A DNA stretch of 64,000 nucleotides from positions 124,001 through 188,000 of the forward strand of contig NZ_RJKN01000001.1 of the NCBI RefSeq assembly GCF_003751265.1. Reading direction: 5' to 3'. This document shows, one piece after another, positions 3,497 to 20,971 of this stretch (within the stretch, counting starts at the first letter, position 1; each line of letters starts with the position of its first letter). The position numbers and the translations under genes were made by a program. The notes below the pieces were generated by a model. The model saw only the letters and a program-made list of their open reading frames with translations, made no database searches and had not been told where the DNA came from. Origin of the DNA: Pseudokineococcus lusitanus (GTDB lineage: Bacteria > Actinomycetota > Actinomycetes > Actinomycetales > Quadrisphaeraceae).

Positions 3497-4390
3497 TCAG
3501 GACGGGCCGCGGGGCCCCCGGGGCCGCTGGTCGTCGTCGCCGCGCCGGCGCAGGTAGCGCTCGAACTCGCGGGCGATGGCCTCGCCGCTCGCCTCGGGCA
3601 GCTCGGCGGTGTCCTTGGCCTGCTCGAGCTGCTGGACGTACTCGGCGATCTCCTCGTCCTCGCCGGCCAGCTCGTCGACGCCGCGCTCCCACGCCTCGGC
3701 CTCCTCGGCCAGGTCCTCGAGCGGGACGGCCGCGCCGACGACCTCCTCGACGCGGCCCAGCAGCGCCATGACGGCCTTGGGGGAGGGGGACTGCCCGACG
3801 TAGTGCGGCACGGCCGCCCACAGCGAGACCGCCTGCAGCCCACGGCTCGACGCCGTGTCACCGACGACGCCGACGATGCCGGTGGGGCCTTCGTAGCGCG
3901 ACGGCTCGAGGGCCAGGTGCTCGAGGCCCGGGTCGTCGCTCGTCGACGTGATGGGGATGGGCCGCGTGTGCGGGACGTCGGCGAGCAGGGCGCCGAGGAT
4001 GACGACCGTGCGGGCGCCGAGCGCCTCGGCGTGGTCGAGCACCTCGCGCGTGTAGGCCCGCCAGCGCATCGACGGCTCGATGCCGTGGACGAGGACGACG
4101 TCGCGCCCGCCCCCCGGGGGCCGCGCCCACGCGAGCCGCGTCGTCGGCCACGTGATGCGGCGGCGGCCGTCCTCGTCGAAGCCCGTGACCGGCCGGTTGA
4201 CCTGGAAGTCGTGGTAGTCCTCGGGGTCCAGCTCGGCGAAGGTCGTCTCGCCCCAGACCCGCGCGAGGTGGTCCAGCGCGCCGCTCGCGGCCTCGGCGGC
4301 GTCGTTCCAGCCCTCGAAGGCCGCGAGCACGACGGGGTCCCTCAGCTCCGGCACCTCGGTGCCCCGGGACCGTCCCACCTGCTCGCTCAC
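3497..4390 (-). CDS. PAC2-family (proteasome assembly chaperone-like) protein
   Basis: 297 residues. The body from about residue 10 to 240 matches the PAC2 family: DPVVLAAFEGWNDAAEAAS near the N-terminus, VLVHGIEP, and the GDTASSRGLQAVSLWAAVPHYV stretch typical of actinobacterial members, followed by an acidic helical tail with RYLRRRG. The open frame runs further upstream to 4672, but GTG at 4390 has a GAGGAG ribosome site 5-6 bases before it, and the upstream part is repeat DNA, so I start here. Eukaryotic PAC2 proteins help assemble 20S proteasomes; the role of actinobacterial homologues is not settled, though this genome does have a proteasome. It is convergent with the glycosidase gene. 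Confidence 0.88.
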   Translation of the reverse strand: MSEQVGRSRGTEVPELRDPVVLAAFEGWNDAAEAASGALDHLARVWGETTFAELDPEDYHDFQVNRPVTGFDEDGRRRITWPTTRLAWARPPGGGRDVVLVHGIEPSMRWRAYTREVLDHAEALGARTVVILGALLADVPHTRPIPITSTSDDPGLEHLALEPSRYEGPTGIVGVVGDTASSRGLQAVSLWAAVPHYVGQSPSPKAVMALLGRVEEVVGAAVPLEDLAEEAEAWERGVDELAGEDEEIAEYVQQLEQAKDTAELPEASGEAIAREFERYLRRRGDDDQRPRGPRGPS

Positions 4391-4547
4391 CACGTCCTCC
4401 TCGTCGGTGCCCCTCGCGGGCGCGGCGCCTGCTCGCCGGGGCCGCTCCACCCTACGGGCGCGCCGTGGACCCGCCCGTCGCACGGGCGGCGGACGGGCCC
4501 ACGAGGGACGCCCTCGCCGGACATCGGGGCAACCGGCTCCCGCAGCC

Positions 4548-4690
4548 CGACTTCGCTGCCGAAGTCGTCGGGAGAGCACCCCATCACCCCACTTCGCTGC
4601 CGAAGTCGGCGGAAGCGCGTCCTGTCGTCCTACGTCGGCAGCGACGTCGACGGCAGAGGGCCCGTGGCCCACCTTCGGCAGCGACGTCGA
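4548..4690. repeat. 41-bp-periodic palindromic array, locus 1 (4 units)
   Basis: Most of the 398-bp gap between the PAC2 and HAD genes that shows structure. Four 20-bp hairpin units begin at 4548, 4589, 4630 and 4670, so spacing is 41, 41 and 40 bp. Unit 1 is CGACTTCGCTGCCGAAGTCG (8-bp stem, CTGC loop). Unit 2 has the same loop, while units 3 and 4 carry GCAG loops, meaning inverted orientation. The 21-bp intervals after units 1 and 2 still resemble the intervals of the longer array at 19745-20031 (shared CGGGAGA and CGGAAG starts). Function unknown. The rest of the gap shows only a -10-like box for the HAD gene. Confidence 0.85.
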
Positions 4691-4788
4691 GAAGGAGGGG
4701 CTCGTCGTCGGCTGCCCGGAGGGCGCCGGGGCGACGGGAGGGGCGGCTCCGGCGGCGGTACCCCGGGCGCGCCTGGGAGACTCGGGCC

Positions 4789-5520
4789 ATGCCCACCCCC
4801 ACGACGCCCGACCGCCCCGTCCCGCTCGCGGCCGCGATGCCGGCCGCGGTGCTGTGGGACATGGACGGCACGCTCGTCGACACCGAGCCGGTGTGGTGGG
4901 CGGCCGAGCGGGCCCTCGTGGAGGCGCACGGCGGCACGTGGTCGGACGAGCAGGCGCTGGCGCTCGTCGGCAGCCAGCTCGAGGTCTCGGCCGAGGTCCT
5001 GCGCGTCGAGGGCGGGGTCGACCTGCCCGTGCCGGAGGTCATCGAGGTGCTGGCGGCGTCCGTCGTCGCGGACCTCGTCAAGGGGCCGCGCTGGCGGCCG
5101 GGGGCGCGCGAGCTCGTCGCCGAGCTCGCCGAGGCCGGTGTGCCCCAGGCCCTCGTGACGATGTCGTGGCGGCACATCGCCGACGCGATGCTCGGCCACC
5201 TGCCCGAGGGCACCTTCGCCGCCGTCGTCACGGGCGACGTCTGCGAGCGCGGGAAGCCGCACCCCGAGCCCTACCTCCGCGCCGCCGAGGCCCTCGGCCT
5301 GCGCCCCGAGGACTGCCTCGCCGTCGAGGACAGCCCCACGGGCGTCGCGTCGGCCGCCGCGGCGGGGGTGCCGGTCGTCGCCGTGCCGCACGCGGTCGTG
5401 GTGCCCGCACGGCCCGGCGTCGCCGTGGTCGGCAGCCTCGCCGGGATGACCACCGGCGACCTCGCGGAGGTCCGGCGCGGCGTCCTCGACGCGGAGGGCG
5501 CACCGCCGCAGGGCGACTGA
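4789..5520 (+). CDS. HAD-superfamily hydrolase (phosphatase/phosphoglucomutase-like)
   Basis: 243 residues. HAD motif I is LWDMDGTLVDTEPVW near residue 22-36 with both catalytic aspartates, motif II is the LVTMS segment near 125, motif III is the lysine in CERGKPHPEPY near 150, and motif IV is EDSPTGVASA near 180. The helical cap between motifs I and II puts it in the beta-phosphoglucomutase-like subgroup (cap type C1). The substrate is unknown; such enzymes dephosphorylate sugar phosphates or isomerise them. The start is fixed by ATG 4789, with GAGACT at 4777-4782 exactly six bases upstream, which suggests a leaderless transcript. The gene stands alone between the palindromic array and the peptide ABC operon. 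Confidence 0.9.
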   Translation: MPTPTTPDRPVPLAAAMPAAVLWDMDGTLVDTEPVWWAAERALVEAHGGTWSDEQALALVGSQLEVSAEVLRVEGGVDLPVPEVIEVLAASVVADLVKGPRWRPGARELVAELAEAGVPQALVTMSWRHIADAMLGHLPEGTFAAVVTGDVCERGKPHPEPYLRAAEALGLRPEDCLAVEDSPTGVASAAAAGVPVVAVPHAVVVPARPGVAVVGSLAGMTTGDLAEVRRGVLDAEGAPPQGD

Positions 5521-19490: not shown

Positions 19491-19700
19491 ATGGCAGGCC
19501 AGGAGCAGCGCAGGCACGAGCGGCGCGAGGTCGAGACCGACGAGGTCGTCGAGCCCGTGCCCCCGGCACCGGCGGCCGGGGCCGCGACGACGTCCGCGTC
19601 CGACAGCGAGGTCGACGACCTCCTCGACGAGATCGACGACGTCCTCGAGGCCAACGCCGAGACCTTCGTCCGCTCCTTCGTCCAGAAGGGCGGCGAGTAG
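19491..19700 (+). CDS. pup: Prokaryotic ubiquitin-like protein Pup
   Basis: 69 residues, acidic and mostly disordered. The C-terminal half, DSEVDDLLDEIDDVLEANAE followed by TFVRSFVQKGGE, is the Pup signature: an amphipathic helix that binds the ARC coiled coil, then a terminal Gly-Gly-Glu. Because Glu is encoded directly, no deamidation by Dop is needed before PafA ligates it to lysines. ATG 19491 has a GGGAG ribosome site; TACCAT at 19435-19440 is a plausible -10 with a leader of about 45 bases. Unlike the usual tight pup-prcB-prcA arrangement, a 407-bp gap filled by a palindromic array follows. Confidence 0.96.
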   Translation: MAGQEQRRHERREVETDEVVEPVPPAPAAGAATTSASDSEVDDLLDEIDDVLEANAETFVRSFVQKGGE

Positions 19701-19744: not shown

Positions 19745-20031
19745 CACCTCTGCTGCCGACGTCGAACGGGCGACGTCTCCTGACCCGACGTCGCTGCCGA
19801 CGTCGAACGGGAGACGTCTACTGAGCCGACTTCGCTGCCAAAGTCGAACGGGAGACGTCTCCTGGCGCGACTTCGCTGCCAAAGTCGAACGGAAGACGTC
19901 TCCTGGCCCGACTTCACTGCCAAAGTCGAACGGGGAAGGCCTCCCGGGACGACTTCGCTGCCGAAGTCGAACGAGGAAAACCCGCTGGCACGACGTCGGC
20001 AGCGACGTCGGGGTGGGCGCGCCCGGCCCGC
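19745..20031. repeat. 41-bp-periodic double-palindrome array, locus 2 (7 units)
   Basis: Seven units begin at 19745 (left part degenerate), 19786, 19827, 19868, 19909, 19950 and 19991, an exact 41-bp period. Each full unit has a 20-bp hairpin, CGACTTCGCTGCCRAAGTCG (CGACGTCG arms in some), then a 21-bp interval whose best copies contain the 12-bp palindrome GGAGACGTCTCC. The last unit is inverted (GCAG loop). The array fills most of the 407-bp gap between pup and prcB. It matches the array at 4548-4690 in sequence and period. Unlike CRISPR, the intervals are themselves related. Confidence 0.92.
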
Positions 20032-20107: not shown

Positions 20108-20971
20108 GTGATGCCCGCCGCTCCCGTCCCGCCCCCCGGAGGCCCGTCGGGCCGCCTGCCCGCGGCCTTCCACGTCGCCGGCGCCGCCTCCTTCGTCGAC
20201 CTCGTGGCCGGGACCGACCCCTCGTTGCTGCCGGGCCGGCGCCCGCTGCCCGCCGGGGCGCTGCCGCCGGAGCTCGACCCGCCGCACGCGACGACGATCG
20301 TCGCCCTCACCTACCCCGGCGGCGTCGTCATGGCGGGCGACCGCCGGGCCACCGCCGGCTCGACCATCGCGCACCGCGAGATCGAGAAGGTCTTCCCCGC
20401 GGACGCGCACTCGTGCGTCGGCATCGCGGGCACGGCCGGGATCGCCGTGGAGATGGTGCGGCTGTTCCAGGTCGAGCTCGAGCACTTCGAGAAGATCGAG
20501 GGCGCCGTCCTCTCCCTCGACGGCAAGGCCAACCGGCTGTCGGCGATGGTGCGCGGCAACCTCGGCCTCGCGATGCAGGGCCTGGCCGTCGTGCCGCTGT
20601 TCGCCGGCTACGACGCCGCCCTGGGCCGCGGGCGGATCTTCAGCTACGACGTCACGGGCGGCCGCTACGAGGAGCGCGGGCACCACTCCGTCGGCTCCGG
20701 CTCTGTCTTCGCCAAGGGCGCGCTCAAGAAGCTGCACCGGCCCACCCGCGGGGTGGACGACGCCGTCGCCACCGCCGTGGAGGCGCTCCACGACGCGGCG
20801 GACGACGACTCCGCCACCGGCGGCGTCGATCTCGTCCGCGGGGTCGTGCCGGTCGTCGCCGTCGTCGACGAGGCCGGGTACCGGCGCGTGCCGGACGAGC
20901 GGGTGCTCGCCGTCGCCCGCGAGGTGCTCGCCGCCCGCACCGCCCGCCACGAGGAGGACACGCAGCCGTGA
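20108..20971 (+). CDS. prcB: 20S proteasome beta subunit PrcB
   Basis: 287 residues including a propeptide of about 61. Processing before [20 protein letters not shown] exposes the catalytic Thr (residue 62). [27 protein letters not shown] and [13 protein letters not shown] match the beta-type family. Fourteen copies form the two inner rings and hydrolyse unfolded proteins. TAGGGT at 20095-20100 lies seven bases before GTG 20108, so I start there; ATG 20111 and GTG 20090 are alternatives. The stop overlaps prcA by four bases. The gene seems to have its own promoter, separate from pup. Confidence 0.94.

Follow-up and report, generated by a model that had tools for sequence, protein, structure and literature searches.

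Two arrays of one palindrome family in the window

The window analysed here is a 64,000-nucleotide stretch of the 3.84 Mb genome of Pseudokineococcus lusitanus (G000), which we compared with the genomes of three sister species of the same genus (G001–G003). It contains two arrays of short palindromes, placed among the following features:

3497–4393, minus strand: PAC2-family gene (Pfam PF09754, E 2.3e-62), its 5' side facing the array
4548–4567, plus strand: F1 unit 1, CGACTTCG-CTGC-CGAAGTCG
4589–4608, plus strand: F1 unit 2, CTGC orientation
4630–4649, minus strand: F1 unit 3, GCAG (opposite) orientation, arms of the ACGTCG type
4670–4689, minus strand: F1 unit 4, GCAG orientation, one arm degenerate, CACCTTCG-GCAG-CGACGTCG
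4789–5520, plus strand: HAD-family hydrolase gene (Pfam PF13419), its 5' side facing the array
19491–19700, plus strand: pup, its stop codon about 45 bp ahead of the second array
19745–20010, strand not assigned: second F1 array, seven units of which the first is degenerate, orientation ++++++-, period 41 bp, between pup and prcB
20111–20971, plus strand: proteasome beta subunit position (prcB), downstream of the second array, from our own gene caller

The original prediction had placed four hairpins at 4548, 4589, 4630 and 4670, with a period of about 41 bp and a flip from CTGC to GCAG in mid-array. We recovered all of this, with steps of 41, 41 and 40 bp, central tetranucleotides CTGC, CTGC, GCAG and GCAG, and an imperfect fourth unit. 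In 2000 dinucleotide shuffles of the PAC2–HAD gap, no hairpin pair of this type appeared 40–42 bp apart. The two loci of the window had also been assigned to a single palindrome family, and both are F1 arrays. The seven-unit array at 19745–20010 interrupts the proteasome operon between pup, which we take to be this gene from the C-terminal FVRSFVQKGGE read in the sequence and from general knowledge, and what is presumably prcB, given its place behind pup.

The F1 family across the genome

The F1 core is a 20-bp palindrome, CGACTTCG-CTGC-CGAAGTCG, with an ACGTCG arm variant, and we found 123 units in about 27 arrays of P. lusitanus; array counts are lower bounds, drawn from the stretches examined around matches. 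With up to three mismatches the core matches the genome 109+77 times, against 9+8 for a reversed control pattern, and the exact degenerate core gives 43+35 matches against 0+0. Random spacing of the copies, which would have told against the original prediction, is not what the genome shows: 82 of 95 F1 steps are exactly 41 bp. Arrays range from two to eight units, step-changing indels are rare, and array ends are enriched in ACGTCG-type units (19/54 end units versus 5/65 inner units).

By the boundaries of a simple home-made gene caller, all F1 arrays are intergenic, most of them 15–62 bp from the closest 3' gene end. Over all families, the median distance from array start to nearest 3' gene end is 20 bp, only 2 of about 100 arrays overlap a called gene, and the gaps that hold arrays are tandem in 59 cases, convergent in 28 and divergent in 13. 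The orientation of single-direction arrays showed no correlation with the direction of transcription.

Orientation switches within F1 arrays almost always run from CTGC to GCAG. We counted 19 such +- transitions versus two -+ in F1, where a +- pair is present in 18 arrays, and four versus none in F2 and F3, numbers that carry no formal probability because arrays descended from one ancestor would not be independent. The head-to-head switch predicted at 4548–4690 is therefore real, but reflects a genome-wide F1 rule and not a property of this locus. Whether switches always lie near the array end had been raised as a question, and they do not: of the seven F1 arrays with at least four units and one clean switch, five change direction just ahead of their last unit and two (4548–4690 and L045) in mid-array.

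Cores and spacing are kept, intervals diverge

F1 cores are nearly as similar between loci (identity 0.835) as within a locus (0.853). In the intervals of 19–21 nt, by contrast, identity between loci is 0.391 versus 0.406 expected from column composition, and 0.61 within a locus. Core identity between and within loci agrees to about 0.03 in five of six species–family sets, the exception being the degenerate family F2 (0.83 between loci versus 0.90 within). F3 and F5 in the sister species repeat the F1 pattern, with like cores and with intervals that are unlike between loci, at or below chance; within a locus, interval identity ranges from 0.61 to 0.75 over the families. As intervals resemble each other only within a locus, the arrays grow locally, through duplication of entire units; and as cores are near-identical where intervals sit at composition level, core and spacing are what is kept afterwards, while the intervals drift.

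The claim that intervals diverge while the period stays thus holds genome-wide, and selection for spacing rather than for interval sequence is well supported, the 41–42-bp step recurring in several palindrome families and in four species. The intervals are nevertheless not arbitrary sequence, since they carry a weak GGGGCCCC (GGGG/CCCC) dyad at the half period, 20–21 bp from the core centres. This dyad lies at an equal offset in F1–F4 and shows no covariation.

Two alternatives bear directly on these patterns. The arrays could be functionless relics, formed by minisatellite-like slippage of a repeat of the genus ancestor and made uniform through gene conversion. The similarity of intervals within loci, which points to local unit duplication, and the variation in array length would agree with such an origin. 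However, gene conversion should even out the intervals too, whereas uniformity between loci is limited to the cores, and step-changing indels are rare; we regard this account as quite improbable. The combination of constant repeat, diverging intervals and constant period also recalls a CRISPR-like array, in which a palindromic repeat separates acquired spacers. Spacers should then be unrelated, but the intervals of one locus resemble each other, and all have the positional GGGGCCCC pattern as a common profile. They are also only 19–21 nt long, the arrays are small, dispersed and number more than 100 in four genomes, and orientation switches inside arrays, and we give this explanation virtually no credence.

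Arm pairing and folding

If the palindromes acted as RNA, the tandem hairpins could be bidirectional terminators or protectors of mRNA 3' ends, and with the convergent orientation each transcript would meet the CUGC-loop form first. The placement of arrays 15–60 bp behind stop codons suits such a role, and each strand of the array at 4548–4690 folds more stably than its shuffled versions (z -4.4 and -2.6). The pattern of substitution in the arms, however, argues against it. At F1 arm pair 4–19, none of 16 deviants is Watson–Crick, and at pair 3–20 only 3 of 57 are; the compensated exceptions are F1 pair 6–17 (25/59, a T-A to G-C variant) and F3 pair 4–19 (7/34). The F3 consensus moreover has fixed unpaired positions (C.A, T.T and A.C). 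This near-absence of compensation, together with the fixed F3 mismatches, favours a reading in the double helix over RNA pairing.

Folding energies point the same way. On one strand of the L042 array, folding is no stronger than in shuffles (z -1.0), and hairpins on the array side gain very little over random windows (-26.1 versus -24.2 kcal/mol). With energies near random background and almost no compensatory change, the arrays do not fit the picture of an intrinsic terminator, whose stable hairpin behind a stop codon would be kept up by compensatory changes. In array-free sister gaps, on the other hand, the best 45-nt energy behind the stop codon averages -30.0 kcal/mol against -24.2 for random, so that an array may stand where a terminator-like hairpin stood, itself forming no comparable hairpin. 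Adding that 13 arrays lie in divergent gaps and that hairpin function needs no single sequence repeated genome-wide, we consider an RNA role unlikely.

Arrays of like design but different core in the sister species

As an array, the F1 core is absent from G001–G003 and from 55 further relatives. The sisters carry the same array design with other cores of 20–22 bp and a step of 41 or 42 bp; the families besides F1, one of them in P. lusitanus itself, are:

F2: GTGAAGT-NGACGCCN-ACTTCAC, in P. lusitanus, a second, older and degenerate family
F3: GYGAAGG-TGACGCC-YCCTTCAC, in G001 and G002
F4: GCGAAGC-AGACGCC-TCCTTCAC, in G003
F5: GGCGAG-TCGTCGCC-NGYTCGCC, in G001–G003, step 42 or 41 bp
F6 and F7: smaller families of the sisters
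L279:4673–5006 (G003:C1:82072–82405): F7 array, GGCACTCTGTCGGCACATCGCC, about nine units, step 41 bp

In all, at least 102 arrays of all families were catalogued over the four genomes. The step is as regular as in F1, 63 of 71 F3 steps in G002 being exactly 41 bp and 30 of 37 F5 steps in G001 exactly 42 bp. F1–F5 have in common a central hexamer GNNGCC of the same polarity (GCTGCC, GACGCC, GTCGCC). The gap that holds the F7 array in G003 is without an array in G001 and G002.

A covariance model of core–interval–core matched the four genomes of the genus 141, 40, 130 and 14 times and had 0–11 weak matches elsewhere. With a cut-off of E 1e-6, matches among the 297 genomes of the order were confined to these four, and so to one of 95 genera, for a model trained on F1–F4 that could miss genera with unrelated cores. 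Two 200-kb samples from sister genera (G004 and G006) had no 41-bp arrays. Searched against genome contigs, the bare 10-bp core pair gave chance matches and no comparable arrays among the matches listed, which says little as these may leave out the relatives of P. lusitanus itself. None of seven matches in viral contigs had a palindrome array. A few searches of the full-text literature, with partial coverage, brought up no account of arrays like these in the group.

Shared addresses and exchanged cores

In G001–G003, metH lies between the PAC2 and HAD genes (L227, L229, L230), and it is missing from this place in P. lusitanus (4394–4788). The PAC2 gene adjoins the array only for this reason, and the array belongs to the metH–HAD junction. 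This junction holds four F1 units in P. lusitanus (4548–4690), two F3 units in G002 and two F5 units in G001; that of G003 is without an array and has a GC-rich inverted repeat, evident from the sequence itself. Other addresses show similar exchanges. The gap behind a rhodanese-domain gene (L046) holds F1 in P. lusitanus and F3 in G001 and G002, L045 has F1 versus F3, and at L059 seven F1 units in P. lusitanus correspond to six F3 units in G002 and three F4 units in G003.

We mapped 15 P. lusitanus addresses (16 arrays) by gene anchors before array presence in G002 was known, and four of them are occupied in G002 as well. With about 50 arrays and about 3400 genes, well under one shared address is expected, a rough estimate that hot spots behind genes could raise. 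Two more shared addresses (L065/L338 and L290/L347) involve G002 loci chosen because they hold arrays. The orthologous gap is empty for 11 mapped P. lusitanus arrays in G002 and for 11 in G003, and with several sister gaps array-free, no single array can be essential. Relatives without any periodic signal in the same gap would have told against the original prediction, and here the outcome is mixed: many sister gaps are indeed empty, but several, including the metH–HAD junction, are periodic with a different palindrome.

A connection with the proteasome had been raised, with the reservation that it might be chance, from the two loci of the window. It proved incidental and was ruled out: the flanking genes scanned near arrays are unrelated housekeeping genes, the array at 4548–4690 belongs to the metH–HAD junction, and the pup–prcB gap has no array in G002 or G003. 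This gap measures 362 bp in P. lusitanus versus 89 bp in G002, where it contains a strong hairpin. The second PAC2 paralogue of P. lusitanus (L061:4094–4238, G000:C7) is likewise followed by an F1 array, 26 bp from the stop codon, which is probably coincidence.

Arrays lie to either side of an MTES_1575 nuclease-like gene. At L054:4243–5605 (G000:C4:234742–236104) in P. lusitanus it encodes 290 aa, winged helix-turn-helix (wHTH)/restriction-endonuclease-like, with a PF18741 match below the Pfam cut-off, and lies between F1 units ++++ on one side and ---- on the other. Two F5 arrays enclose the gene in G001 and G002, and in G003 the gap is without an array and, at 71 bp, too short to hold it. 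Its family has 1–8 matches in each of the 15 genomes searched, genera without arrays included, so that as a candidate cognate mobility gene it is no more than a lead.

Comparison with REP-like elements

The usual accounts of REP-like repeats invoke either selfish DNA or tracts that bind proteins, explanations that are difficult to tell apart. REP and BIME elements are palindromic, 20–40 bp long, extragenic and of high copy number, and the units described here fall within this range (20–22 bp; 123 F1 units). Further likenesses are the polarity of the short palindromes, their position near 3' gene ends, the regularly spaced clusters and the several species-specific families. BIMEs are composed of regularly spaced REPs in alternating orientation and bind proteins (PMC2817692); the units here, although regularly spaced, mostly point in the same direction, with at most one convergent switch. 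Other differences are the step fixed at 41–42 bp in all families, the weak half-period dyad, and the exchange of cores between sisters at shared addresses. In F1, F2, F3 and F5 the GTAG/CGTC tetranucleotide exceeds 7% at no fixed offset, and the RAYT transposase (Y1 transposase, PF01797) had no matches in P. lusitanus, controls being positive in five genomes. Lacking the tag and, in P. lusitanus, a RAYT, the arrays are not classical REPs (PMC2817692, PMC3733652): they may function much as BIMEs do, yet two of the features that define REPs are absent.

Among related elements, the CGTC-tagged REPs, which include Neisseria dRS3 and Rickettsia RPE, have an 8–9-bp stem, a 4–5-nt loop and head-to-head pairs, and are without a dedicated transposase (PMC3733652). 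In stem/loop design, head-to-head pairs and lack of a dedicated transposase they resemble our arrays, where however a fixed-position CGTC is absent and clusters, rare in CGTC REPs, are the rule. REPINs are RAYT-linked inverted doublets (PMC3116915); their inverted pair resembles the +- pair of the 18 F1 arrays, but here same-direction runs of up to eight predominate and no RAYT was found in P. lusitanus. Operator arrays and iterons likewise consist of palindromic sites in helical phase, whereas the present arrays are dispersed at dozens of unrelated genes, behind and not before them.

The arrays could accordingly be selfish REP-like elements, palindromes copied by a hairpin-acting transposase and then multiplied locally, with uniform cores marking recent spread and the different cores of sisters different invading families. 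Extragenic placement at 3' ends, several families per genome that are species-specific, an older degenerate family (F2) in P. lusitanus, inverted pairs that resemble head-to-head doublets, and sister gaps that are empty at most tested addresses are all consistent with this. Yet P. lusitanus lacks the Y1 transposase, and a tag at a fixed place is missing, GTAG/CGTC occurring at no F1 offset in more than 6% of units. Intervals of different loci are alike only by composition, which speaks against recent spread of whole arrays; a fixed step and half-period dyad common to families are unexpected from independent insertions; and roughly one in four of the addresses tested carries an array in both species. 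A selfish origin thus seems possible but doubtful.

A model of phased protein-binding sites

B-DNA makes one helical turn in 10.25–10.5 bp. The 41–42-bp step thus corresponds to about four turns, so that successive cores face the same side of the helix, with the weaker dyad two turns away. Our best explanation, to which we give roughly even chances, is that the arrays are helically phased REP/BIME-like clusters of sites, placed mainly behind genes, for a putative sequence-specific DNA-binding protein acting as a dimer; we infer the protein itself, its dimeric binding and its role at gene ends. The conserved core, the step, the half-period dyad, the placement at stop codons, the absence of compensation and the turnover of cores at shared addresses all point to protein sites. 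On the other side, the flanking genes scanned share no theme and no regulon is visible, and a short core that was copied recently would be identical between loci as well.

We postulate that the putative dimeric protein would bind the cores cooperatively, and that the bound tract at gene ends would insulate or stop transcription, as a road-block, or organise the chromosome. The placement at gene ends suggests such roles, and insulation, road-blocking or chromosome organisation have likewise been proposed for BIMEs (PMC2817692). A shift in the specificity of the putative protein is probably what brings about a change of core, which would explain why cores are uniform within a genome and different between sisters. 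More speculatively, the arrays might form a genus-specific, chromosome-wide system of marks, in which some addresses are kept and the palindrome is rewritten as a species set along with a fast-evolving protein while the four-turn spacing persists; we see this as a possible but rather unlikely extension.

With the same spacing and junctions but different palindromes, the sister species constitute a natural experiment on selection for repeat, spacing or protein, and the species-specific core offers a direct route to the putative protein. One array of G002 (G002:C2:361237–361381) combines F3 and then F5 units nearly in phase, their centres about 39 bp apart. Rfam has no family on the arrays, and its Ms_IGR-5 and cobalamin riboswitch entries fall only at neighbouring places in a single locus of G002, where an F3 array adjoins the Ms_IGR-5 sRNA (L296:3778–4019).
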